Source: Endomicrobiia bacterium (lineage in GTDB: Bacteria; Elusimicrobiota; Endomicrobiia; Endomicrobiales; Endomicrobiaceae). Taken from it: a stretch of 12,612 nt of DNA. The stretch's first letter is position 1. Each line of letters starts with the position of its first letter. The notes below the pieces were generated by a model. That model saw nothing but the letters and a program-made list of their open reading frames with translations. It did no database searches and was not told where the DNA came from. Shown here piece by piece: positions 1 through 12,374 of this stretch. The position numbers and the translations under genes are program-made. The DNA lies in NCBI GenBank assembly GCA_009782015.1, contig WQUP01000115.1, forward strand, positions 1 through 12,612. Reading direction: 5' to 3'.

Positions 1-225
1 TTTAGGGTCATCCCCGAATGTCTTAATCGGGGATCCATTTTTACTAAAAATAATATTTTGTTCCTTATATCTTTTTCAACAGCTAACATGGACCCCCGAT
101 AAAAACACTCGGGGGCGACACATAAAGTGTCGTTTTGCTCAAACAACCGGATTTGAATAATCCGCAAAAACCCCACGCTCATAGACGCGCACAATGCGGC
201 AACTTCAATAGCTAAACTGCCACGA
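1..225. repeat. Structured 226-bp repeat, left copy (contains GTCAT doublet D1)
   Basis: This segment matches 12150-12374 in the same orientation at a constant offset of 12149, with about 17 differences by eye (roughly 92% identity) and no indels. Inside it lies an inverted doublet (7-119). Its left palindrome is GTCAT-CCCCGA-loop-TCGGGG-ATCCA and its right palindrome is the reverse arrangement ending CGGGGGCGAC. The loop of the right palindrome here differs from that of the other copy. Two more hairpins follow: cgacac-ataaa-gtgtcg (116-132, then TTTT) and cggatt-tgaat-aatccg (148-164). No coding capacity is credible. The left edge may extend beyond the window. Confidence 0.85.
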
Positions 226-1723: not shown

Positions 1724-1832
1724 AAACGGCAGAGGGTTGGAAGTTTAGAAGTTTGGAGGTTTGGCAAAGACAAAGTTGTTAAAGCCGTTGCTAAACTTCT
1801 AACCCTCCAAACTTCCAATCTTCCGCTGTTAA
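1724..1832. repeat. Family A hairpin element A1, at the parB stop codon
   Basis: Ends are AAACGGCAGA (left) and, inverted, TTAACAGCGGA (right). Each arm is a run of degenerate 8-bp units (ggttggaa, gtttagaa, gtttggag), and the two arms are largely complementary. The core (1763-1791, minus strand) matches 25 of 29 bases of the A5 core (6554-6582). The parB stop codon TAA (1829-1831) lies inside the right end. Confidence 0.75.
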
Positions 1833-2680
1833 CGTATTTCCGCCGCGATTCTTTCCAGCTCTTCAAGCGAATAATAAAATATTTCTATCTTGCCTTTTTT
1901 GCTGCTGCCGCTTATGTTTACCTTTGTGCCTAGCTTTCTTTGCACTTCTTCTTTCAGGTGCACTAATTCTATCTCTTGTTTCTTCGGGGACTTCCCCCCT
2001 TTTTCTATTTTATTTTTAGAGACGATTTTTTCTACTTTCCGAACAGAAAGGTTCTCGTTTAAAATCTGCTCGACAAGCGCGCGTATCTCTTTTTCGTTTT
2101 CAAGTCCGGCAAGCATTCTGCCGTGGCCGGAGGAGATTCTCCCCTCCGTTATTAACGACTGGATATCTTCGGGAAGGTTCAAAAGCCTGAGAGCGTTTGA
2201 AATGACCGATCTCTCTTTTCCGACTATTTCCGCAATATCTTCATGCGTGTGTTTGAACTCTTCGATAAGCCTTCTAAAAGCTTTGGCTTCTTCGACGGGA
2301 TCCAAATCTTCGCGCTGGAGATTTTCTATCAAAGCGAGATCAAAGCGCTGTTTGTCGTCGGTAGCAGGTTTTACTATGGCGCGTATATCTTTGTTGCCGG
2401 CAATTTTAGAAGCGCGAAACCGGCGTTCGCCGGCGATAATTTCATACTCGCCAGGAACTATGGAATTTGCCACAAGGATAGGCTGGGCAAGCCCGTGCTT
2501 TTTTATTGAATCGGCAAGCTCTTGGAGCTTGTCTTTATCGAACTTTTTTCTCGGCTGAAACCTGTTAGGTTTTATTTTGTTTAAAGGTATTGTGATTACC
2601 GCTTCCCCTGCCGCAGCTTTGCCAGCGGCAAGCGACGGTATCAATGATTCCAACCCTCTTCCTAAAGCTTTTTTCTGCAT
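1829..2680 (-). CDS. parB: Chromosome-partitioning protein ParB (CTPase clamp)
   Basis: A 283-residue canonical chromosomal ParB. The N-terminus KALGRGLESLIP (4-15) is the conserved ParA-interacting segment. IPLNKIKPNRFQPRK (31-45) starts the ParB/Srx domain, and the CTP-binding/arginine motif GERRFRAS spans 84-91. ENLQREDLDPVEEA (119-132) is the second nucleotide motif. A helix-turn-helix (about 146-170, EDIAEIVGKERSVISNALRLL) reads parS, and the C-terminal 235-283 region is the dimerisation domain. The start is supported by AAGGGAG nine bases upstream. The last codons and stop run into element A1. By family knowledge it loads on parS and spreads as a CTP-dependent clamp. Two candidate parS sites lie at 5578 and 8320. 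Unusually, three genes separate it from parA. Confidence 0.97.
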   Translation of the reverse strand: MQKKALGRGLESLIPSLAAGKAAAGEAVITIPLNKIKPNRFQPRKKFDKDKLQELADSIKKHGLAQPILVANSIVPGEYEIIAGERRFRASKIAGNKDIRAIVKPATDDKQRFDLALIENLQREDLDPVEEAKAFRRLIEEFKHTHEDIAEIVGKERSVISNALRLLNLPEDIQSLITEGRISSGHGRMLAGLENEKEIRALVEQILNENLSVRKVEKIVSKNKIEKGGKSPKKQEIELVHLKEEVQRKLGTKVNISGSSKKGKIEIFYYSLEELERIAAEIR

Positions 2681-2703: not shown

Positions 2704-2741
2704 GTCATTGCGAGCGGGCAAAGCCCGCGCGGCAATCTAGA
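2704..2741 (+). repeat. GTCAT palindrome, left flank of the GIY-YIG gene
   Basis: GTCAT-TGC-GA... ...GGCA-ATCTAGA with a central perfect hairpin gcgggc-aaa-gcccgc (2714-2728). GTCAT faces away from the GIY-YIG gene. Together with 3058-3100 it forms an inverted pair with GTCAT outermost. It also fills most of the gap upstream of parB. Confidence 0.85.
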
Positions 2742-2774
2742 CATAAGAATGTTGTTTCAGTTAGATTTCCGGTT

Positions 2775-3074
2775 TTATATTATGCTCTCGTACAAATCTT
2801 TCCAATCGGGATTCATCTTTTCTATCAACTCCAGTTTGTCTCTTCTGGAGCCGCCCTTCAGCTGTTTTTCTCTCGAAATCGCATTTACTATGCTCTCAAA
2901 AATTTCGTAGTAAGCCAATTTATCCACTTTATATCTTTTAGTGAATCCATCGACAAATTTATTTTTATGCTCATACACCCTTTTTATGAGATCTGACGTT
3001 ACTCCCGTATATAAAGTTCCGTTTCTCTTGTTGAATAAAATGTATACATAGGCATTTCTGGATTGCTTCGTCAT
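2775..3074 (-). CDS. Small GIY-YIG nuclease-superfamily protein
   Basis: A single-domain GIY-YIG protein of 99 residues from ATG at 3074. The signature reads YVYIL (9-13) then LYTGVTSDLIKRVYEHK (21-37), placing the two signature tyrosines, Arg32 and the YEHK motif as in the UPF0213/YhbQ-like group. REKQLKGGSRRDKLELIEKMNPDWKDLYE follows, with the Glu of REKQ the likely metal ligand. Family members cut DNA, or are thought to; partners of these tiny stand-alone forms are mostly unknown. An alternative start, TTG at 3080, is better spaced (7 nt) from a GAGGA ribosome-binding site; both starts lie in the right-flank palindrome. The gene is bracketed by inverted GTCAT palindromes and splits parA from parB, so it looks like a mobile cargo or mobilising gene. 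Mobility is inference. Confidence 0.88.
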   Translation of the reverse strand: MTKQSRNAYVYILFNKRNGTLYTGVTSDLIKRVYEHKNKFVDGFTKRYKVDKLAYYEIFESIVNAISREKQLKGGSRRDKLELIEKMNPDWKDLYESII

Positions 3075-3100
3075 AAACAAAGTTTATTCCTCGCAATGAC
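3058..3100 (-). repeat. GTCAT palindrome, right flank of the GIY-YIG gene
   Basis: Read on the minus strand: GTCAT-TGC-GAGGA..., central triloop hairpin ataaac-ttt-gtttat (3073-3087), then ...GAAGCA-ATCCAG. It is inverted relative to 2704-2741. It contains the ribosome-binding site and both candidate start codons of the GIY-YIG gene, and encodes its first residues (TKQS). Confidence 0.85.
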
Positions 3101-3114
3101 GGCGATGCCGTCAT
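3096..3114. repeat. Perfect triloop palindrome over the stop of the upstream gene
   Basis: An 8-bp stem with a three-base loop: atgacggc-gat-gccgtcat. Its left half is the GTCAT end of the adjoining palindrome. The stop codon TGA of the gene at 3111-3794 (bases 3113-3111) is inside it. Confidence 0.8.
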
Positions 3115-3794
3115 TTGAACATCTGCGGCATTTCAACCGGACTGTCCGCGCCCGGAAGCGTCTCTGTTTGCAAAATGTTTTTCCCGGAAACCGGTTTTAA
3201 TTCATACGTGTCGGAAAAAAATGATTTTTTAAGCATAACGCCGTGCACCGCGCCGTAATATTTGTAAAATTTGTCGGCGATAAGCTGCACGATTTTTTTA
3301 TAGCTTGCTTTGAATATGGTATTTCCGGTTATTTCGCAAGGCAGCGGCGCTTCGCCGGCAGGTTGAAGGTAAACCGTAATATTGTAGCGGGCGGACCTGC
3401 TTATCGTTATAAGTTCCGCGTAAGTTATTTTGCGCAGTTCCTCCCATTTTACAGCCTTGGAATTAAATATAAATTTGTCGGCGTCAAACTCAAGCAGGAT
3501 ACTTTCTTTTTTGCACAGCGCAAATATTATGGATTTGCCAAAAAACACGCTGCACAGCACAAGCGCTATGGCGATTATTAATGCTATGGCAGGCCTTATT
3601 GTAAATAATGCCATGTATTGCCTTATTATAGGTCTCATTCTAAACGCGTGTACCCCGTGTTCGAGCAATATCATAATAAAAGCGCCGGCCATTATAAGCG
3701 AGACGTAGCCCATGGTGACCGTTTCTCTGTCAACTGCGGGAATTTCTGCCAAGTCGCGCCTTGAAGATGATATTTGTCCGTTAGAAAAATCCAT
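3111..3794 (-). CDS. Two-helix membrane protein with possible PH-like domain (paralogue 1)
   Basis: A 227-residue protein, paralogous to its neighbour at 3919-4581. Order: a short polar N-terminus (MDFSNGQISSS), two hydrophobic segments (about 29-45 and 65-85), then a soluble domain starting LLEFDADKFIFNSKAVKWEELRKITY. The alternation of a short strand, 'xxWEExxxI' and further strands resembles small bacterial PH-like domains; that is a weak guess. I chose ATG 3794 because the paralogue starts at the same MDFSNG and AAGGA lies four bases upstream. A longer start at 3845 would only translate repeat D4. The last ~45 codons are nearly identical to the paralogue, while the middle is diverged. Function unknown. 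It lies between parA and parB but shows no partition-protein feature. Confidence 0.8.
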   Translation of the reverse strand: MDFSNGQISSSRRDLAEIPAVDRETVTMGYVSLIMAGAFIMILLEHGVHAFRMRPIIRQYMALFTIRPAIALIIAIALVLCSVFFGKSIIFALCKKESILLEFDADKFIFNSKAVKWEELRKITYAELITISRSARYNITVYLQPAGEAPLPCEITGNTIFKASYKKIVQLIADKFYKYYGAVHGVMLKKSFFSDTYELKPVSGKNILQTETLPGADSPVEMPQMFK

Positions 3795-3809
3795 TTTATC
3801 CTTGCGCCT

Positions 3810-3903
3810 GTCATGTTGAAAGGGAATGAAGTTCCCTTGAAACATCTAGACCTTCAGACTGGCTTGGCTAGATTCTTCGAGGACGCTGTCCTCTCAGAAT
3901 GAC
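3810..3903. repeat. GTCAT doublet D4 between the two membrane-protein genes
   Basis: Left palindrome GTCAT-GTT-GA...TTGA-AAC-ATCTAGA (3810-3850) with stem aagggaa/ttccctt. Right palindrome, inverted, CTAGAT-TCT-TC...CTC-AGA-ATGAC (3868-3903) with triloop hairpin gaggac-gct-gtcctc. The two halves of one doublet carry different arm triplets (GTT and TCT), each internally complementary. Confidence 0.85.
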
Positions 3904-3918
3904 AACGAAAATTAGTGT

Positions 3919-4581
3919 TTACCTAAACATCTGCGGCATTTCAGCCGGACTGTCCGCGCCCGGAAGCGTCTCTGTTTGCAAAACGTTTTTTCCGGAAACC
4001 TGTTTTAATTCATAAGTGTCGGAAAAAAAAGATTTTTTAAGCATAACGCCGTGCACCGCGCCGTAATATTTGTAAAATTTGTCGGCGATAAGCTGCGCCG
4101 TTTCTTTGGAGCCCGCTTTAAAAACGGTATCGCCGGTCAGCTCTACGGGCGTTATTACTTTTTTGCTGCCCAAAGGGTTTGCGCCCATCGGGCGCTCGTA
4201 ATGAACCGTAATATTGTAGCGGCTGTATCTGCTTCTTTTTATAAATTCTTTATAGGTGATTTTGCGCATGTCAGCCCATTTTATAGGCTCTCCGTTAAAT
4301 ATAAAGTTATCCGCGTCGAACTCGAGCACGGCTTTGTTCTTTTTGCACATTAAAAATATTATCTTTTTGGCCGAAATCACAACGACGGATATAAACGCTA
4401 TCAAAAAAATGACCGGCATGATTCCTGATTCGGCAGCTCTGAGTTTAATAAATAAAACCAGCAAAAGAGCAACTGCAATTACAATTGCGGCATACGCTGT
4501 ACCGGCCGTTTTTCTATCTACAGCGATAAGTTCAACCGCGTCGCGCCCTGAAGATGATATTTGTCCGTTGGAAAAATCCAT
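3919..4581 (-). CDS. Two-helix membrane protein with possible PH-like domain (paralogue 2)
   Basis: A 220-residue protein with the same plan as 3111-3794: MDFSNGQISSS start, hydrophobic segments at about 28-46 and 54-78, then a soluble domain opening VLEFDADNFIFNGEPIKWADMRKITY. The start is well supported by AAGGGG five bases upstream of ATG. It is transcribed after parA, across element A2. Identity to the paralogue is very high at the C-terminus (QLIADKFYKYYGAVHGV onward) and at the first ~11 residues, and much lower between, suggesting partial gene conversion or recent exchange of ends. I do not recognise a named family. A membrane-anchored ligand- or protein-binding role is inference from layout only. 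Confidence 0.8.
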   Translation of the reverse strand: MDFSNGQISSSGRDAVELIAVDRKTAGTAYAAIVIAVALLLVLFIKLRAAESGIMPVIFLIAFISVVVISAKKIIFLMCKKNKAVLEFDADNFIFNGEPIKWADMRKITYKEFIKRSRYSRYNITVHYERPMGANPLGSKKVITPVELTGDTVFKAGSKETAQLIADKFYKYYGAVHGVMLKKSFFSDTYELKQVSGKNVLQTETLPGADSPAEMPQMFR

Positions 4582-5451: not shown

Positions 5452-5576
5452 TTATAGTTAATAGTTAATAATTAATAGTTAATAGTTTTTGAGTGCGCAA
5501 AGCGCACAAATTTGATATCGCGGCAAAGCCGCTCCAAAACTATTAACTATTAATTATTAACTATTCCCTGCCGTTA
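5452..5576. repeat. Family A hairpin element A3, between parA and the M48-like gene
   Basis: Arms are 7-bp units (tagttaa). Left arm 5461-5489 is perfectly complementary to 5536-5564 over 29 bases. The core holds two perfect triloop hairpins: gtgcgc-aaa-gcgcac (5493-5507) and gcggc-aaa-gccgc (5520-5532). The right end carries ccctgccgtta, the inverted AACGGCAGG terminus. It also encodes the last residues (TAGNS) and stop of the gene at 5557-6276. Confidence 0.85.
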
Positions 5577-6276
5577 TTGTTTCACGTGAAACATTATTTT
5601 GAGACATTTTATTTAAAGCGTCTATTCTTTTTGTCAGATTTTTATCTTTCAGTTTAATGTTCAAAGACGGAATTCCAAATCTTTGCGTTGAAAAAAGGCC
5701 TTTAAGTAATACAAGCGCGAGCTTTACGGAATCAACTCCGGATTTTTGAATTGCGGCTTTATCTGCTTTCAAAGTCCAGCAGTCAACGATAAAGTTACCA
5801 AATATAAAGTAGAAAAGCAAAGTGAGCGCTGCTGCCGACAGCAAAAAAACCAAACGCATGGGCTGTGTTGTCTCTATTACTTTGAAGAGAGACGCGATCC
5901 CAAAAAAAAGAAGCGCAAGAAAAGCGGCCGTGGCCAGAAGCAGCGCAAAAACATAATAAACTTTTGAAGTTTTGGCGTAGTATTCGGAAAGAATTGCGGC
6001 AAGAACCGACTCATCATCAATGTCTTGTGAATCTTCAAGCAAATTGGAAATAACTATATCTGCCTGTTTGCCTTTTGTAAGCGTTGCCTGCGAATATATG
6101 CCGTCCACTATATTTTCGGGCATGGCAGTATATATGGTTAGCGGTTTATTTAACAGCGCAGAAGCAAGCTGCCCGGCTCTTAAAATTTTTTCATCCGAAC
6201 TTTTGTCCGCAATGTAAAAGCCCTGCGCACAAAAAAACATGATCTGGTTGAAGCTAACTTTTATTTGTTCCGGCAT
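5557..6276 (-). CDS. Membrane-embedded degenerate M48/HtpX-like protein, catalytic residues lost
   Basis: A 239-residue protein that follows the M48 (HtpX) layout. KPLTIYTAMPENIVDG (44-59) aligns with the M48 'PRVFIVNDPSPNAFATG' strand, DIVISNLLEDSQDIDDESVLAAILSEYYAK (73-102) with the stretch ending in HEXXH, then a hydrophobic hairpin (about 104-131 and 141-163) sits where HtpX has its third and fourth membrane helices, and LKADKAAIQKSG (169-180) occupies the ExxxD helix. The HEXXH site reads S97-E98-Y-Y-A101, so both histidines are gone. The third ligand Glu is T168, with D172 kept. It cannot bind zinc in the usual way; a pseudoprotease or scaffold role is inference. AAAGGA upstream supports the start and overlaps the end of element A4. 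The C-terminus reads a parS site in frame (NVSRET) and then element A3. Confidence 0.68.
   Translation of the reverse strand: MPEQIKVSFNQIMFFCAQGFYIADKSSDEKILRAGQLASALLNKPLTIYTAMPENIVDGIYSQATLTKGKQADIVISNLLEDSQDIDDESVLAAILSEYYAKTSKVYYVFALLLATAAFLALLFFGIASLFKVIETTQPMRLVFLLSAAALTLLFYFIFGNFIVDCWTLKADKAAIQKSGVDSVKLALVLLKGLFSTQRFGIPSLNIKLKDKNLTKRIDALNKMSQNNVSRETITAGNS
5578..5593. promoter_or_regulatory. parS site 1 (16-bp ParB-binding palindrome)
   Basis: TGTTTCACGTGAAACA is a perfect 16-bp palindrome equal to the broadly conserved chromosomal parS consensus. It lies inside the 3' end of the gene at 5557-6276, read in frame as NVSRET, two bases from the end of element A3, and within 150 bp of the parA start codon. 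ParB is encoded in the window, so the site is expected to be bound. Confidence 0.9.
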
Positions 6277-6283
6277 TTGTATC

Positions 6284-6420
6284 CTTTAACGGCAGGTAAT
6301 AGTGAATAATTAATAGTTAATAGTTATTGAGTGCGCTTTGCGCACGGATTAAATATTGCGGCGAAGGGGCGATGTCCCAATAATTATTAACTATTCACTG
6401 TTAATTATTAATTGCCGTCC
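6284..6420. repeat. Family A element A4, upstream of the M48-like gene
   Basis: Left end TTTAACGGCAGG (from 6284), right end aattgccgtcc. Arms are 7-bp units of taatagt type but only imperfectly complementary. The core carries triloop hairpin gtgcgc-ttt-gcgcac (6331-6345), matching the A3 core but with the loop in opposite complement, followed by a related gcggc segment. A3 and A4 share arms and core type and flank the gene at 5557-6276. The original stop of the upstream radical SAM gene (6426-6428) lies just outside its right end. Confidence 0.75.
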
Positions 6421-6456: not shown

Positions 6457-6664
6457 CGCGAGGCGCGCGGAGCGCGCCGAAGCTCAGAGAGCTCAGAAGT
6501 TCGGAAGTTCAGCAACGGCGACAACGGCGGAAGGTTAGAGGTTTAGAGGGTTGGCAACGGCGTTAAAGACTTTGTTTTTGCCAATCTTCCAATCATCCAA
6601 TCTTCTAATCTTCGCCGCCAAAGGCGGCTTGCCGAACTTCTAATCCTCCGCCGTTAAAGCATTT
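6457..6664. mobile_element. Family A insertion A5 with 15-bp target-site duplication
   Basis: A 208-bp segment is flanked by identical 15-mers AATTTCGTTGCAAGG at 6442-6456 and 6665-6679. On the minus strand both copies encode LATKLN of the radical SAM C-terminus. The distal copy continues to SLL and TAA (6428-6426), the likely ancestral end. Inside are 8-bp arm units (ccaatctt, ccaatcat, ctaatctt), triloop hairpins ggcgcgc-gga-gcgcgcc (6462-6478) and gccgcc-aaa-ggcggc (6614-6628), a core matching A1, and the end CCGCCGTTAAAG. The insertion gives the gene a new tail (TAED, stop at 6642-6640). No transposase is encoded. Confidence 0.78.
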
Positions 6665-8235
6665 AATTTCGTTGCAAGGTTCTTGATCCGCATTATCTCT
6701 TGCCAGTCTTTTGTTTCAAAGAGGGGGAAAACCGATTTATTATGAAGCAGCGGCTCATTTGCAAAGTCTCTGCCTTGGCCGTCATTGCGAGCACTGAAAG
6801 GGCGCGGCAATCCAGCGTTTGGAAAGTCTAGATTGCTTCGTTGCTTCGCTCCTCGCAATAGCTCTGAGTTTGTAGAGACAGCCAATTGCCGTTCATAGTT
6901 TTTGCCTGCCGCCGTTTTGTTGTTTTTGATTTGTAATTCGTAATTCGTAATTTGTAATTGCCGTTGAAAGTCTTTCGTCCCCGGCACAACAGAATACTCC
7001 GAAAGCGATACCCTGCCGCCAAAGCTGTGCACATATTTGATCGATTCTTCAACGTCTTTCAGGCTCTGGCCCGGCATGCCCATGAGCAGATATATCGTAA
7101 ACTCCCCGTTTTTAAAGCCGGCTTGTTTAAGAATGGCAACCGCCCTCTCAAAACCTTCATTTGTAATCTTTGCGCCGGTTTCATTTTGCAAGCGGGCATC
7201 AGCGCTCTCAAGGCTAAATCTTGGGGAGGCAAAGCCTCCTTTTTTCATTAACGACGCCAGCTCTAAATCTAAATATCTGAGGTGCAGGCCGTTAGGGGTA
7301 TGGATATTTATTTTCATGCCGCTTGCAATTATTTTCCTAAGCAGCGGCTTTATGTATTTATCCGCATCGTAAAGCAAAGCGTCATCATAGAAAACAATGT
7401 TTTCTATCCCCTTTGCAGCAAATGCCGCTATTTCCTCAAACACCCGTTCGGGTGTTTTTGCCGTAAAAGTATCAGCGCACAAGGTGCGCTGGGCGCAGTA
7501 ACTGCAGTTGAACGGGCATCCCATGGACATTCGCAAAGCAACGTAACTACACCTATTATAATAGGTGTAATCCGGAGCGGGAAAGCAAGCAAAGCTTGCC
7601 TGTACACTGGCGGGTATGGCAAGTTGTTCAAAAACCTCGTTTAAGGAGGCAAGGCCTCCCTGAACTAAAAAGTCAGGCTTTGCTGTTTCTAGCGCATGTT
7701 TTGGACAAAGCGTGGCATATACTCCGCCCAATGCTACAGGCACATTAGGAAATACATTTCTGACGCTTTCAATTGCTTCTATAACTCCCGGATACCAATA
7801 AGTCATAATCGAAGTAACAATAATAAGGTCAGGGCGCTTGAGCGCGCGCAGCCTACTTTTAGCTGTTTCTTTTAGAATCCCGTATCTTGAGTAGTGTCTT
7901 GGCACATGCTTCAACGCCGCAGGCTTCGGCACATGCGTTTTTAAGTAGTGGCCGCATCCGTATCTTTGCCCGTCATTCTGAGGGAACCTTGTTCCCGAAG
8001 AATCCAGGCCTGGATCCTTCGTCGCAACTTTGTTGCTCCTCAGGATGACAGACCCGGCAAAATGCCTGTCCATATAGTCAAGCATCTCAACTTCAACATT
8101 CTGCTGCTTGAGTATGGAAGACAAATACAAAAGTCCCAGCGGCTTTGACCAAAGGTCAAATGCGGTAAAGTCGTAAACGGGGGGATTAATTAGAAGCGCA
8201 GATTTCTTGTTAATGGTTGAATTTTTGTTATTCAT
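6640..8235 (-). CDS. B12-binding-domain radical SAM protein with in-frame repeat insertions
   Basis: A 531-residue protein from ATG 8235. N-terminal B12-binding-like part: SALLINPPVYDF (12-23), LYLSSILKQ, PDLIIVTSIMTYWYP (135-149), VALGGVYATLCP (167-178). Radical SAM core: MGCPFNCSYC (238-247; C240, C244, C247 as CxxxCxxC for the 4Fe-4S cluster), then VFYDDALLYDA, GGFASPRFSLESAD and GEFTIYLLMGMPGQS. The substrate is unknown; this architecture does methyl transfer and other radical chemistry. Three stretches are repeat DNA read in frame: residues about 62-88 (doublet D6, 26 codons), much of the C-terminal region between 6781 and 6965 (doublet D5 and a heptad remnant), and the tail TAED from A5. 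A longer TTG start at 8370 was rejected because it translates element A6 and parS. No clear ribosome-binding site precedes 8235. The core motifs are intact, so activity is plausible. Confidence 0.85.
   Translation of the reverse strand: MNNKNSTINKKSALLINPPVYDFTAFDLWSKPLGLLYLSSILKQQNVEVEMLDYMDRHFAGSVILRSNKVATKDPGLDSSGTRFPQNDGQRYGCGHYLKTHVPKPAALKHVPRHYSRYGILKETAKSRLRALKRPDLIIVTSIMTYWYPGVIEAIESVRNVFPNVPVALGGVYATLCPKHALETAKPDFLVQGGLASLNEVFEQLAIPASVQASFACFPAPDYTYYNRCSYVALRMSMGCPFNCSYCAQRTLCADTFTAKTPERVFEEIAAFAAKGIENIVFYDDALLYDADKYIKPLLRKIIASGMKINIHTPNGLHLRYLDLELASLMKKGGFASPRFSLESADARLQNETGAKITNEGFERAVAILKQAGFKNGEFTIYLLMGMPGQSLKDVEESIKYVHSFGGRVSLSEYSVVPGTKDFQRQLQITNYELQIKNNKTAAGKNYERQLAVSTNSELLRGAKQRSNLDFPNAGLPRPFSARNDGQGRDFANEPLLHNKSVFPLFETKDWQEIMRIKNLATKLNALTAED
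6781..6859. repeat. GTCAT doublet D5 inside the radical SAM gene
   Basis: Left palindrome GTCAT-TGC-GAG...GGCA-ATCCAG (6781-6815). Right, inverted: CTAGAT-TGC-TTC...CTC-GCA-AT (6828-6859), with the terminal GAC lost. It is translated in frame near the C-terminus of the radical SAM protein (SNLDFPNAGLPRPFSARNDG). Confidence 0.8.
6884..6965. repeat. Family A remnant with 7-bp units inside the radical SAM gene
   Basis: Flanked by direct aattgccgtt at 6884-6893 and 6956-6965. It contains tandem taattcg-type heptads (about 6931-6959) on one side only, so one arm seems lost. Translated as RQLQITNYELQIKNN. The aattgccgtt ends match the CAACGGC terminus of the other family A elements. Confidence 0.6.
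7972..8049. repeat. GTCAT doublet D6 inside the radical SAM gene (26 codons)
   Basis: Left palindrome GTCAT-TCT-GAG, triloop gggaac-ctt-gttccc (7982-7996), GA-AGA-ATCCAG. Right, inverted: CTGGAT-CCT-TCG, triloop gcaac-ttt-gttgc (8024-8036), CTC-AGG-ATGAC. At 78 bp it adds exactly 26 codons without a stop to the N-terminal domain, between DYMDRHF and YGCGHY. Confidence 0.88.
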
Positions 8236-8319
8236 AAAAGTAATAAGTAACAAGTAATAAGTAATAAGTTTACGGCAACGACGAAAGCCTTTTTGTTTTT
8301 TACTTATTACTTGCCGTTG
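8236..8319. repeat. Family A hairpin element A6, upstream of the radical SAM gene
   Basis: Arms are 7-bp units (aagtaat). A 14-base stretch 8251-8264 is complementary to 8300-8313. The core 8271-8300 (acggcaacgacgaaag) resembles the cores of A2 and A5. The right end ttgccgttgt abuts parS site 2. The element leaves no visible ribosome-binding site for the radical SAM gene. Confidence 0.75.
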
Positions 8320-8335
8320 TGTTTCACGTGAAACA
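8320..8335. promoter_or_regulatory. parS site 2 (16-bp ParB-binding palindrome)
   Basis: TGTTTCACGTGAAACA, identical to site 1. It is intergenic, between the stop of the gene at 8348-9250 and element A6. As at site 1, a family A end (gccgtt plus two bases) directly adjoins the palindrome. Confidence 0.9.
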
Positions 8336-8347
8336 TTAACTATTGCG

Positions 8348-9250
8348 TCAAAAATGCATTGATTTTTCAATAAGTTCTTTATTTGTAGGTGTGCTCTGTG
8401 TACTCATAAAGCTTCTCATTTCCGACAATTTTGCCTGAATATTGTCAAACCCGTACTCAAAACCCAAATAAGCGAAAGCGGCAATAATTGCCAGAAACAA
8501 AAATAAAAATATTTTGCTTTTTAAACCGGAATTTGAGTTTGAATAAATAAAATTATTTGACGCATCCGAAGTGTCGAGCGGCATTTCATAGCCGTGCATT
8601 TCTTTGAGAATGTCAACAACCGGCGGTTTCAGCTTTGGCAGTATATCAACAAAACCTTCCGACTGCTTTGCAGTATTCGGAAACTTTTCCATCAAAGCGC
8701 TAATGCGCCTTCTAATAAAAACAATAAGACCGTAATTATCAAAATAAGGTCTCCGTCCGGATCCGCGTCCTCCCATAGCGGAGTATTCGACAAAAGTCGA
8801 ATTTTCAGAAAAATATAAAATTTTTCTCAAAGCGCTTAGCAGAAAATTTACATCACCCGTCAGCTCGTATGTTTTTTCATCTGCGCGCAGAAGCATTTCA
8901 AAATTGCTGTCTGCTCCGTACAAGGCTGATGATGAAAATGCCGGTTTCAATGGCGAAAAGCCAAAAAAATAGTCGGATACGGCCAGTCCCAGAAGTTCAT
9001 CTTGCGAAAGAGTTAACTCTTGAGTTTCTTGAGGAACTATGATATTGATGCCTGAATCTGACTCCCGCAAGATTTTATTGTAAGTTCCGAAAACCGTCAT
9101 ATGTGCAAGGTTTGTAAGATACAGCTTTATGTTTTTTCCGGTCAGTTGAGAAATGCGCCGCTCAACGTCAAGATATTTTTCGGAATCAGCACGAACGGCT
9201 TCGCAGCCGTCAAGGTATATAACATCTTGTGTTTGTTCGTCATTGGTCAT
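8348..9250 (-). CDS. Tail-anchored degenerate M48-like domain protein (one domain)
   Basis: A 300-residue protein. Residues 10-190 form the same domain as in the neighbour at 9301-10740: IYLDGCEAVRADSEKYLDVERRISQLTGKNIKLYLTN..., GINIIVPQ (67-74), DELLGLAVSDYFFG (84-97), LRADEKTYELTGD (121-133), RRRISALMEKFP (180-191). These fit the M48 fold from the 'PxVYVV' strand to the ExxxD helix and the RIxxL end. The HEXXH position reads S-D93-Y-F-F, so both His and Glu are lost. A proline-containing linker, one hydrophobic helix (247-264) and a 36-residue C-terminal tail follow, predicting a membrane anchor with the domain on one side. AGGGG six bases upstream supports the start; this leader is shared with 10740. 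Homology to M48 is my reading by eye. Function unknown. Confidence 0.68.
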   Translation of the reverse strand: MTNDEQTQDVIYLDGCEAVRADSEKYLDVERRISQLTGKNIKLYLTNLAHMTVFGTYNKILRESDSGINIIVPQETQELTLSQDELLGLAVSDYFFGFSPLKPAFSSSALYGADSNFEMLLRADEKTYELTGDVNFLLSALRKILYFSENSTFVEYSAMGGRGSGRRPYFDNYGLIVFIRRRISALMEKFPNTAKQSEGFVDILPKLKPPVVDILKEMHGYEMPLDTSDASNNFIYSNSNSGLKSKIFLFLFLAIIAAFAYLGFEYGFDNIQAKLSEMRSFMSTQSTPTNKELIEKSMHF

Positions 9251-9282
9251 AACTAACCCCTGCTTTTATTTTCATAAAACCT
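9251..9282 (-). promoter_or_regulatory. Leader shared with the upstream paralogue (ribosome-binding site AGGGG)
   Basis: The about 30 bases before the start codon match those at 10741-10772 with only a couple of differences (gcaggggtta and an A/T-rich stretch before it). This is conserved beyond the ribosome-binding site and points to tandem gene duplication including the leader, or a kept control element. Confidence 0.5.
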
Positions 9283-9300
9283 GCTGATTTTCCAATCACT

Positions 9301-10740
9301 TTATCTAAAACCAAAATAAAACGCGGCTGCCAATATTATTAAACCCAACAATAGAAATATCAAAATTTTTAAACCGGAATCCGAGCCTGAAGAAACGACG
9401 TTGTTTGTTATGCCGGAAGTGTCGAAAGCCTCGGGCCGCGTTTGCGGTATGTTTCTTTCTTCAGACATTTCATCAGGCTCTTGCGAATCATATTCCGGCG
9501 GGGTATCTTCGTAATCTTCGTCATTAGTATCGGACGATATATCTCCGCCATTTTCTTCCCGGGGCAAAGCGTTAGGGTTGGTAAAACTTTCCGGCGTTGC
9601 GGCGGAATGAGAATCTGCCTCTAACAGCTCGATGCGGCGGGAAAATAAAGATATTTTGCGGGACAAAAAATTATCGCCATACATTATCAGTCCGAAAGCG
9701 TTTAACAAGCCGGCTTTGGCGGCAGTTAATTCGACGGCTTCTTTATCCGCGCGGGCAACCATTTCCGGAGGAACGTACGGGTCGTACGGGGAAAACAGAG
9801 GGGAATCAGGTATAGATTCTTCGGGCATCAAATCATTTAGGCTGACTGCGAAAAGATATTCAGCCAGCGCCAAAACGTAAAGCTCGTCTTCTAAAAATTC
9901 TGCCGTCAACTCCGCGTCATCCGGAACAATAACGTTGACGCCGGAATCGGAGCGCGATAAAAATTTGTTGTAACTTCCGCAATCGTCTATATTGTTAGGG
10001 TCGGTCAAATACAGGTTTACCTTTTTGCCTGTCTTTTGCGAAAGCCGCTGCTCAAGCGCTAGATATTTTTCGGAACCAGCCCGCATAACTTTGGGTCCGT
10101 CAACGAGCTCTGTGTTTTCCGCGTCAGCGCCGGGAGCTCCGGCCGGAATAACCCCGTCATTTTCTTCCTGCGCCGCCGCTTCGGGCTTTTTCGCGGTGTC
10201 GGGAAAGTTTGCCGCTAAAGATTCAATACGCGACTCGATTAAAGGAACAGAAGAGTTAAAAATCAATTCAATAGACCCCTGATTTCCAAAAGAGAGCATA
10301 ACCGCTTTCAAAGCGTTCAGCAAAAGGCCGGCGCTGCCGGTCAATTCTTCGGCTTTTTTATCGGAGCCGAAAATGCGGTCCAGCGGGATGTATTCATCTT
10401 GCGAAGAATACGAATTTGGAGCATCGGAACTTTCATCCGTCTCCGAATCATCAAAGCCGTCGGCAAAAAAATATTCCGCCAGCGCCAAAGCGTAAAGCTC
10501 ATCCTCCGTAAACTCCGCAGGCATATTCGCATCGTCCGGAACGATAAGATTAACGCGGGAATCCGGCTTTGACAAAATTTTATTGTAGCTTCCGCCAACA
10601 GTTACGTTCGCGGGATCAGTCAAATACAGCTTTATATCTTTGCCGGTCTTCTGCGAAACACGCCGCTCAGCAGCAAGATATTTTTCGGAAGCCGCCCGCG
10701 CAACTTCACATCCGTCAATCAGTATAGTGTCTCCGGCCAT
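9301..10740 (-). CDS. Tail-anchored protein with two degenerate M48-like domains
   Basis: A 479-residue protein with two tandem copies of the domain in 8348-9250: copy 1 about 5-182 and copy 2 about 212-378. Each has SEKYLAxExRxSQKTGK, LYLTDP, GSYNK, VNxIVPDD, EDELYxLALAEYxF, (A/S)DKxAxELT and a terminal RIExL. M48 peptidases have 'PNAFATG', then HEXXH in 'DELxAVLAHELGH', then 'EADRxAAELTG'. Here the HEXXH site reads A88-E89-Y-F-F and A293-E294-Y-L-F: Glu kept, both His lost. The membrane hairpin that HtpX has between these motifs is replaced by an acidic linker. A long acidic, probably disordered stretch (about 380-450) leads to a C-terminal helix (458-475), so it is tail-anchored. Function unknown; binding partner or inactive chaperone-like role is inference. 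Confidence 0.7.
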   Translation of the reverse strand: MAGDTILIDGCEVARAASEKYLAAERRVSQKTGKDIKLYLTDPANVTVGGSYNKILSKPDSRVNLIVPDDANMPAEFTEDELYALALAEYFFADGFDDSETDESSDAPNSYSSQDEYIPLDRIFGSDKKAEELTGSAGLLLNALKAVMLSFGNQGSIELIFNSSVPLIESRIESLAANFPDTAKKPEAAAQEENDGVIPAGAPGADAENTELVDGPKVMRAGSEKYLALEQRLSQKTGKKVNLYLTDPNNIDDCGSYNKFLSRSDSGVNVIVPDDAELTAEFLEDELYVLALAEYLFAVSLNDLMPEESIPDSPLFSPYDPYVPPEMVARADKEAVELTAAKAGLLNAFGLIMYGDNFLSRKISLFSRRIELLEADSHSAATPESFTNPNALPREENGGDISSDTNDEDYEDTPPEYDSQEPDEMSEERNIPQTRPEAFDTSGITNNVVSSGSDSGLKILIFLLLGLIILAAAFYFGFR

Positions 10741-10843
10741 AATTAACCCCTGCTTTTATTTTCGTAAAACTTAAAGCATGACAGCGCCGCTTGAATATAT
10801 TATCGCAACCGCCATTACCGTAACCGGCATTACGATAACATAT
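10741..10843 (-). promoter_or_regulatory. Leader and probable promoter region of the two-domain M48-like gene
   Basis: 10741-10772 is the leader shared with 9251-9282 (AGGGG six bases before ATG). Further upstream, 10800-10838 is an imperfect palindrome bounded by ttatcg and cgataa, with repeated attaccg/taaccgg inside. It could be an operator or another decayed hairpin. I could not settle a -35/-10 pair. Confidence 0.35.
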
Positions 10844-11106
10844 ACGGCGGAAGATTGGAAGTTGGGCAGCTGAGAAGCTGAGCAAGCCGCCCTTGGCGGC
10901 GAAGCTGGGAAGTTGAGAAGCTGAGAAGTTGAGCAAAGACAAAGACTTTGTCGTAAATCCGTTGCTCAGCTTCCCAGCTGCCCAACTTCTCAGCTTCCGC
11001 CGTTCTTGCCGTTGCCCAGCTTTCAAACCTCCAAGCTTCTAATCTTCCGCCGTTGTTGCCGTTGCCCAGCTTCTCAGCTTCCCAGCCTCTCAGCTTCTGC
11101 CGTTAA
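10844..11106. repeat. Composite family A element A7 with a 50-bp-period arm array
   Basis: Left end acggcggaag (10844), right end ttctgccgttaaag. Arms are 8-bp units (ctcagctt, cccagctg, cccaactt). The inner hairpin has gacaaag-a-ctttgtc at its core (10938-10952), plus a triloop hairpin gccgcc-ctt-ggcggc (10886-10900). On the right the arm is present three times. 11001-11050 and 11051-11100 form an exact 50-bp period: a near-constant part (cgttnttgccgttgcccagc) plus four variable octads. The right end supplies the stop of the HAD gene. Plus- and minus-strand ORFs here are repeat translations. Confidence 0.75.
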
Positions 11107-11773
11107 AGTATTTATAAAGCTCCTCATGATTGTCAAAGACAATATCGGCTTGTTTGAGGTAGCTCTTTTCAAGGCTCGTGGCTATGGCAGCGCAGAACAT
11201 CTTCGCCGCTTTCGCGGACCGTACTCCGTACGGCGCGTTTTCCACGACAAATCATTGGGACGGACTGATATTCAGCTTTTTTGCGGCAATAAGATAAGGG
11301 TCCGGGTACGGTTTTCCGCGCTTTACCATATCGCCTGTGATTTTAACGTCGAAAAGCCCGTATATTTCTTCCGGAAGCATCTTTTTTGCTTCGTCAAGGC
11401 TTGAGCCGCTGACAAGACCGAGCGAAAATCCGCGGTTTTTAAGAGCTTCGAGTATTATAAAAGCGCCCGCAAAAATATATCTCTTAAAATATTTGGCAAA
11501 AAGCGCGCGCCTTTCCTCAAAAATCTTTTTCTCGGTTTCCGGGCTGAGCGGCCTGCGGTCTCTTTTAAAAGCGAATTTAATGACTTCGTTCCACTTCGCG
11601 CCTTCCCTCTCGAATATGTCTCCGGGCGTAACGCGGATGTCGTACTTTCTCAAAACTTCAAACCAGGAAATAAAATGGTACGGCATAGAATCGACAAGCA
11701 CGCCGTCCATGTCAAAAAGAACCGCTTTAAAAAGTTTCGGGTTAAATTTAGGAGTTTTCATTTGAGTTGTCAT
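11090..11773 (-). pseudogene. HAD-family phosphatase/phosphomutase interrupted by one in-frame TGA
   Basis: Reads as a full-length (227 codon) beta-phosphoglucomutase-like HAD hydrolase apart from one TGA (11254-11252, codon 174). Motif I is FDMDGVLVDS (20-29; nucleophile D21, acid/base D23), a helical cap follows, motif II is VSGSS (121-125), motif III K154 is in RGKPYPDPY. After the TGA the same frame continues FVVENAPYGVRSAKAAKMF and runs to NGRS*. The family usually reads 'CxVxENAPxGVxA' here, so TGA stands where Cys (TGT/TGC) is normal. It is either a nonsense mutation, a sequencing error, or a recoded codon. Start is uncertain (ATG 11773 or 11761; no ribosome-binding site). The C-terminal residues NGRS and stop come from element A7. 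Substrate unknown. Confidence 0.75.
11213..11237 (-). promoter_or_regulatory. Strong hairpin 14 bases downstream of the in-frame TGA
   Basis: On the minus strand: cgcg, ccgtac-gga-gtacgg (perfect triloop), a two-base bulge, cgcg. Spacing from TGA to the stem is 14 nt and to the loop 24 nt, and the loop opens with GG, which is within the loose description of bacterial SECIS elements. It also encodes the conserved APYGVRS motif, so it may be coincidence or another of the window's many triloop palindromes. Confidence 0.3.
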
Positions 11774-12149: not shown

Positions 12150-12374
12150 TTTAGGGTCATCCCCGAATGTCTTAATCGGGGATCCATTTTTGATAAAAAT
12201 AATATTTTATTCCTTGTGTCTTTTTCGACTGCTAACATGGACCCCCGATTAAGACATTCGGGGGCGACACATAAAGTGTCGTTTTGCTCAAACATCCGGA
12301 TTTGAATAATCCGCAAAAATCCTACGCTCATAGACGCGCATAATGCGGCAACTTCAACAACTAAACTGCCGCGA
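12150..12374. repeat. Structured 226-bp repeat, right copy (contains GTCAT doublet D2)
   Basis: Second copy of 1-225, same orientation. The doublet is at 12156-12268. Here the two palindromes are perfect partners (left loop atgtcttaa, right loop ttaagacat), whereas the left copy has mutated its right loop. It is preceded by a further palindrome tgaccc-ttta-gggtca (12144-12159). Upstream bases around 12120-12140 partly mirror the downstream ccggatt...aatccgcaaaaa segment, so the structure may extend to about 12100. Confidence 0.85.

Follow-up and report, generated by a model that had tools for sequence, protein, structure and literature searches.

Which enzyme, if any, serves the CGTC-tagged repetitive extragenic palindromes (REPs) of bacteria? 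The question is raised by positions 2704 to 3100 of contig WQUP01000115.1 (assembly GCA_009782015.1) from an Endomicrobiia bacterium, where the gene for a small GIY-YIG nuclease lies between two inverted palindromes. The contig, analysed over its full 12,612 nucleotides and referred to here as the window, carries the label C115 in an assembly of 1.58 Mb and 290 contigs that is 71% complete. CGTC-tagged REPs make up one of two large REP superfamilies and, in the accessible parts of the paper that describes them, apparently come without a dedicated transposase and were not seen flanking tyrosine transposase genes (Di Nocera, De Gregorio & Rocco, 2013; PMC3733652). Our answer, held with modest confidence and by analogy with the REPIN/RAYT system, is that 2704-3100 is a selfish REP-gene-REP module, encoding an enzyme that recognises CGTC-tagged REPs and probably mobilises them.

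The module and the other stand-alone GIY-YIG genes of its genome

The 397-bp module is placed between parB (1829-2680, minus strand) and a gene of unknown function (3111-3845, minus strand), and consists of the following parts:

2704..3100, minus strand: whole module, 397 bp from GTC to GAC
2704..2741, plus strand: left flanking palindrome, GTC at 2704 facing outward, tail CTAGA running inward to 2741
3058..3100, minus strand: right flanking palindrome, GTC at 3100 facing outward, tail CCAG running inward to 3058
2775..3074, minus strand: single-domain GIY-YIG nuclease gene, 99 aa, ATG at 3074-3072, stop codon at 2777-2775

Inverted palindromes around the gene, with their tags outward, had already been described in a reading of the sequence alone (the sequence-only reading), and our detector confirmed their coordinates. 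The module starts with GTCATTGCGAG...GCAATCTAGA and ends, on the other strand, with GTCATTGCGAG...GCAATCCAG. The ATG of the gene falls within the right palindrome (the protein begins MTKQS), an overlap found at 5 of the 80 loci that have an upstream tail-inward palindrome. The protein matches PF01541 with 57.3 bits (cut-off 22.6; E 2e-15), and Y11, Y22, G24, R32, H36 and E69 are invariant across 56 aligned sequences; all but the glycine are presumably the catalytic Tyr, Tyr, Arg, His and Glu of GIY-YIG enzymes. Its closest solved structure by sequence is 1zg2 (UPF0213 protein BH0048; E 2e-4). PADLOC and PHROGs searches with the protein gave no match, nor did an Rfam scan of the window.

Palindromes were sought with a strict rule (GTC-AT plus three paired bases at one end, three paired bases plus AT-C at the other), applied identically to genes and controls, and with a relaxed rule that loosens the tag and drops the tail requirement. 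The strict detector found 11 palindromes in the window; 200 first-order Markov resamplings gave 0.29 on average and never more than 2. By tag, AT stem opening and CCA-like tail, the window palindromes fit the CGTC-tagged REPs, which, in the parts of the source available, are defined by a stem of 8-9 bp, a loop of 4-5 bp and dimers with mostly outward tags (PMC3733652). As single-stranded DNA, the left flanking palindrome is predicted to fold at -12 kcal/mol, better than shuffles (z -3.5), and the right one folds weakly (z -1.15; 28 of 200 shuffles were equally good); both predicted folds have interrupted stems longer than 8-9 bp and a 3-base loop.

Seven GIY-YIG matches occur in this genome: six stand-alone genes and one within a 436-codon frame that is probably UvrC. 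Each of the six stand-alone genes is flanked within 200 bp on both sides by a tail-inward GTC palindrome, and in five the nearest palindrome is tail-inward on both sides, the exception being locus L001, where a tag-inward one lies closer on one side. At least five palindrome classes stand beside the six genes, the two sides of a gene being of the same or nearly the same type:

L001: palindrome class GTCATTCCGGA
L002: palindrome class GTCATTGCGGG
L003 and the window gene: palindrome class GTCATTGCGAG, proteins 74% identical
L004: palindrome class GTCATTCCCGTG
L006: palindrome class GTCATACCGGC

Locus L002 holds, at 1366-1423 and 1808-1868, a CCCCGAAT-type palindrome nested in a TGCGGG-type palindrome, and a similar composite appears twice.

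Bracketing in other genomes and the match between palindrome and protein

A search of contigs representing one genome per species, made with an alignment of the six proteins, gave 552 relatives. The best 80 of the 552 were used, some of them closely related to one another (e.g. L075/L079 and L016/L018); 76 loci had 200 bp on both sides and the other four lay too near a contig end. Controls were uncurated open reading frames (ORFs) called mechanically on the same contigs. Tail-inward palindromes bracket 50 of the 76 relatives and 2 of 456 control ORFs (Fisher 3e-48). Palindromes on both sides in any orientation occur at 69 of 76 and 60 of 456, respectively, and the nearest palindrome is tail-inward rather than tag-inward by 107 to 21 at the relatives, compared with 26 to 41 at the control ORFs. 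The result held when the stem was set to four with one mismatch (53/76 vs 2/456) or the flanks were cut to 120 bp (45/78 vs 0/471). A detector requiring a stem of five gave 15/76 vs 0/456; it was blind to the window's own palindromes and was replaced by the AT-plus-three rule. The family is large, with at least 7,992 members at E 1e-10 among the 8,000 candidates scored.

The same pattern appears within the phylum. Across 60 genomes (the module's own included), the strict rule found 24 of 34 close relatives bracketed, a set that counts the six genes above; of 18 distant GIY-YIG genes it found none, and of 99 ORFs one. Under the relaxed rule, 29 of the 34 were bracketed. Three partial matches of 72-75 bits (L104-L106) were excluded from both sets. 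The 18 distant genes were taken from 42 weaker matches (11 returned as loci, 7 hand-picked), and for one of them, L184, the sequence ends 10 bp past the gene. Under the relaxed rule, two of these 18 have one tail-inward palindrome and six have any palindrome; a second distant set of 12, sharing 11 loci with the first and including the long GIY-YIG gene of the module's genome, had none bracketed. UPF0213 and other distant GIY-YIG proteins have the same catalytic domain and unbracketed genes (0/18). The sequence-only reading had proposed that this GIY-YIG subgroup is linked to inverted GTCAT palindromes, and had asked for a test of the 200 bp on either side of such genes; the enrichment found there supports the link strongly.

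Palindromes are frequent in the window, and bracketing could in principle be a mere by-product of their abundance between genes. The controls (2/456 and 1/99 ORFs bracketed), together with orientation and type matching, refute that explanation, to which we give practically no credence.

Type matching was assessed in two ways, leaving out three phylum loci whose strand could not be assigned (L093, L101 and L102). At 49 of 71 loci, the palindromes left and right of the gene have the same four letters following GTCAT, compared with a mean of 24 and a maximum of 34 in 5,000 shuffles. On a tree of 105 proteins (90 palindrome-labelled, 96 columns; 52 of 101 inner branches unresolved), palindrome class, scored as either GTCATnnnGA or anything else, switches 6 times, where 300 shuffles averaged 18.9 and never fell below 15; for the three-letter palindrome type there are 22 changes against a shuffled mean of 34.7 and a minimum of 29. 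Palindrome type thus tracks protein clade. The 67 tree rows with a named phylum represent 17 phyla; the tree has 32 changes of phylum, compared with a shuffled mean of 46.9 and a minimum of 42. Many rows are metagenome bins, in which misbinning is possible. Relatives are often in different phyla, yet host ancestry keeps some hold. By eye, the palindrome type is GTCACCCCGGG in Sphingobium, CTCATCCCTGTG in Sinorhizobium, GTCATCCCAGGG in Rhizobium CIAT894 and GTCATCCTCGGG in Shinella. A relative in Neisseria gonorrhoeae, 52% identical over 91% of the query, is surrounded by GTCATTCCCGC-type palindromes. These data support a partnership of the enzyme with its palindrome type.

A GIY-YIG gene on a Planktothrix plasmid (L123) lies between an MmeI-type restriction gene and the DISARM gene drmA.

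Module ends, sites without the module and gene-less palindromes

Eight module pairs, hand-picked from among those listed, were aligned with their flanks. In three (L085/L095, L017/L029 and L004/L089), the similar stretch runs from GTC to GAC, give or take one base; L004/L006, a pair from a single genome, stay similar for seven bases past each end. Measured from GTC to GAC, 71 modules are 337-677 bp long (median 385), and C or T precedes GTC at 135 of their 142 ends. No target site duplication was seen at these 71 modules for k 2-8, where identity outside the ends is near the shuffled value; at k 9 it is slightly raised (0.290 vs 0.259, standard deviation 0.015).

Modules are present at some orthologous sites and absent from others. 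The sequence-only reading had suggested related genomes as a place to find sites lacking the module, and such sites exist, the window's own among them. There, in relative G056, the stop of the neighbouring gene lies 30 bp before parB and no palindrome is found by the strict or relaxed rule. Six further relatives were inspected: by eye, a parA-like gene stands directly before parB in G048, G001, G026 and G008, and in the six no palindrome occurs in the available stretch upstream of parB except for one match about 1 kb away in G001. Several Sphingobium strains carry the module in the fnrL gap. Strain TYG72 has the gap without module or palindromes (strict or relaxed rule), TYG64 has a single palindrome in which the outer halves of the module's two are fused (a relaxed-rule match), TYG74 has, by eye, a mismatched version of it and TYG65 has, by eye, a decayed palindrome of a different type. 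In Shinella, neither module nor palindromes (by either rule) are present at the site in H4-D48 and oryzae, and in PSBB067 the gap is short and gives one match by the relaxed rule.

Gene-less palindromes occur in the window as well, among them these doublets:

7..119: CCCCGAAT-type doublet, second tag GTCGC
3810..3903: gene-less doublet, two GTCAT tags, outward; fold z -3.4
6781..6859: gene-less doublet, second tag decayed to GCTAT; fold z -0.78, no better than shuffles
7972..8049: gene-less doublet, two GTCAT tags, in a variable stretch of a radical SAM gene; fold z -4.5
12156..12268: CCCCGAAT-type doublet, second tag GTCGC, within a 226-bp repeat; fold z -8.1

The sequence-only reading had taken all five for inverted GTCAT doublets. 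Two GTCAT tags are present at 3810-3903 and 7972-8049; the second tag is GTCGC at 7-119 and 12156-12268, and the doublet at 6781-6859 is located as described with its second tag decayed. They belong to several palindrome types, not one. Isolated gene-less pairs have their tags outward in 17 of 21 cases.

This shared orientation without a gene would suit a homing endonuclease that invaded existing palindrome doublets, its targets, which another enzyme had made: the gene occupies the position of the doublet spacer, and gene-less TYG64 (with TYG74 by eye) keeps a palindrome at the same place. Most gene-less sites inspected, however, hold no doublet; TYG72, Shinella H4-D48 and oryzae, and G056 at the window site are bare of palindromes, TYG65 has only its decayed one and PSBB067 its single relaxed match. 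Homing into an existing doublet is less favoured for that reason, and we consider it improbable.

Copy number was gauged by counting three patterns (GTCATTGCGAG, a GAAA-loop type with one mismatch and a TCTGA type) in the 60 phylum genomes. At least 10 matches occur in 11 of 16 gene-bearing and 3 of 44 gene-less genomes (Fisher 3e-6, a value that is indicative only, because the genomes are related). The sequence-only reading had held that doublets abundant in many genomes without the gene would speak against its proposal; such abundance is seen in those three of 44 gene-less genomes, against 11 of the 16 that bear the gene.

Y1 matches are present in 24 of these 60 genomes, and a RAYT or other Y1 transposase might move the palindromes with the GIY-YIG gene as passenger. 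Yet no GTCAT palindrome lies within 200 bp of a Y1 gene at any of 25 loci (30 from a longer match list, minus 5 at contig ends), and the search found no Y1 match in the module's own genome (71% complete, with 168 pattern matches), in G048 (88) or in G009 (27), despite their many palindromes. With CGTC repeats not seen beside tyrosine transposase genes in the available parts of the earlier survey (Di Nocera, De Gregorio & Rocco, 2013; PMC3733652), we hold this explanation to be very improbable.

Several observations weigh against a mobile module. Mobilisation of the palindromes by the GIY-YIG enzyme is inferred from sequence patterns, and no transposition was seen. In four of the eight aligned pairs (L017/L022, L010/L017, L053/L085 and L050/L055) similarity does not end at both tags, and at orthologous sites divergence obscures the module edges, and whether the module was gained or lost is ambiguous. 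The strict two-sided test is failed by 26 of 76 genes; among 17 loci inspected by eye, mostly without a two-sided match, several have variant tags or tails and a few have none, L120 being one without a palindrome. The gonococcal gene has tag-inward palindromes nearest to it, with tail-inward ones farther out. In three genomes (G018, G006 and G002) the patterns match 25 to 105 times and a close relative of the gene is missing; the three belong to family f7, in which G012, G015, G021 and G024 do carry it. Three others (G022, G052 and G016) have the gene and no palindrome of the counted types. When all adjacent pairs within 150 bp are taken, clusters included, 54 have tags outward, 51 inward and 42 head-to-tail, and single palindromes account for 53 of 81 gene-distant clusters. 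Finally, the 220-bp flanks of 74 loci share direct repeats (median score 25, 75th percentile 60) beyond those of 453 control ORFs (20 and 22), and long direct repeats, palindromes included, surround about a quarter of the genes. The strongest are blocks of about 50-200 bp, most of them containing palindromes, and at L010, L037 and L015 they extend into the gene start, which suggests block duplication or recombination as well. For comparison, the 75th percentile of the inverted-repeat score is 38 at the genes and 21 at control ORFs, so that direct repeats stand out no less than inverted ones. The direct repeats and the gonococcal locus lower our confidence in the mobile module slightly.

The direct repeats and the gonococcal locus would fit a housekeeping or self-versus-foreign nuclease that cuts single-stranded DNA at repeats and tunes recombination or DNA uptake, the repeats spreading by other means and the gene moving by recombination between, or duplication of, repeat blocks; so would the effect on transformation reportedly described for the Neisseria protein. 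Recombination through repeats, however, has no need of the tag-bounded shared sequence seen in some pairs, nor of tails-inward placement in most loci, and we judge this account unlikely, if the most serious challenge among those considered here. A module often stands beside a second, gene-less block in the same orientation; this could have arisen by duplication, by insertion of a module next to a block already present, or by loss of part of a second module.

At individual loci, direct repeats of up to about 157 bp flank the GIY-YIG gene of L012, and L121 (Sinorhizobium Ak57) has extra palindrome blocks upstream of its gene that are absent in relative M103 (L129). M103 had been a candidate empty site and was ruled out, the gene being present.

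Further features of the window concern its repeats and neighbouring genes. Near each contig end (1-226 and 12150-12375) there is a copy of a 226-bp repeat, the two 92% identical and each with a palindrome doublet; the assembly may have broken there. The doublet at 6781-6859 belongs to an insertion in the radical SAM gene, in frame and about 50 codons long, that is absent from six relatives; the palindrome makes up roughly half of it and about 25 codons are non-palindrome. The stretch holding the doublet at 7972-8049 is missing in four relatives and replaced by other sequence in two (G048 and G056). Beside the module, two related tandem genes of unknown function (3111-3845 and 3919-4581; a 212-bp part is 91% identical) stand between parA and parB, and relative G056 has a single copy before parB. 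Intergenic arrays at 1719-1840, 6490-6665 and 10837-11120, with short CTTCCAATCTTC-like units in inverted order and GCCGTT-like ends, form an unexplained repeat family. An ORF at 5557-6276 is flanked by AT-rich inverted repeats (TTAATAGTTAATAATTAATAG) at 5454-5569 and 6287-6418, and within 9033-10731 a 181-bp stretch occurs three times across two neighbouring genes at about 70% DNA identity.

Proposed mechanism and comparison with known systems

If 2704-3100 is indeed a mobile REP-gene-REP module, the nuclease of about 100 aa would recognise palindromes of its own type, probably in single-stranded hairpin form, and may cut at or near the conserved pyrimidine-GTC tag. The module and the gene-less palindromes would then be the enzyme-encoding and dependent forms of one repeat family, spreading through hairpin cutting during replication, repair or DNA uptake and rejoining without clear target duplication. 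A broader proposal, which we advance tentatively as somewhat short of probable, is that this GIY-YIG family is the dedicated mobilising enzyme of CGTC-tagged REPs across bacteria: units of some 390 bp would rank among the smallest autonomous transposable elements and have hairpin ends, no clear target duplication, an enzyme coevolving with its palindrome and an origin independent of REPIN/RAYT. A bacterial repeat class previously without a known enzyme gains a candidate, in a package that recurs in many unrelated bacteria; the question of the missing CGTC REP transposase becomes directly testable through a tiny nuclease family, whose members have a likely DNA site readable from their own gene flanks. 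If true, this would be a second, independently built partnership of REP and enzyme.

No paper linking GIY-YIG proteins with REPs was found among the matches listed for the literature searched, which mostly excluded subscription papers and bioRxiv, and the accessible parts of PMC12306157 and PMC1564403 contain no such link.

Chenal et al., in Nature Communications in 2025, reportedly described Ssn, single-strand GIY-YIG nucleases that act on Neisseria NTS repeats and change transformation. Like the present proteins, Ssn is said to be a small single-domain GIY-YIG enzyme; the gonococcal relative, 52% identical and set among GTCATTCCCGC palindromes, is presumably Ssn. The reported work differs in its subject, single-strand cutting and transformation. 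If it is as we understand it, recognition of such palindromes by this GIY-YIG family has already been shown in one organism and part of the present finding is probably known; what is new here would be bracketing across the class, orientation, bounds and the bearing on CGTC REPs.

Rickettsia palindromic elements occur as in-frame copies within protein genes, a likeness to the radical SAM gene of the window (6640-8370), whose two in-frame palindrome doublets recall them. We know of no enzyme for these elements. In Rickettsia conorii they terminate with CGTC, according to the accessible parts of one survey (PMC3733652).

A classical insertion sequence differs in its target site duplication, which the 71 modules lack for k 2-8. 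The REPIN/RAYT system is alike in having inverted REPs around an enzyme gene and gene-less doublets as the dependent form. There, however, the enzyme is a Y1 HUH tyrosine transposase and the tag GTAG, whereas here the fold is GIY-YIG, the tag is (C/T)GTC and the six enzyme genes of a single genome go with five or more palindrome classes. With the CGTC-tagged REPs, as the available parts of their description present them, the palindromes share the unpaired (C/T)GTC tag, a stem opening with complementary AT and a CCA-like tail; their tags are mostly outward in isolated pairs (17/21 here) but not over all adjacent pairs, clusters included (54 outward, 51 inward). The difference is that a GIY-YIG gene is here regularly enclosed between them.
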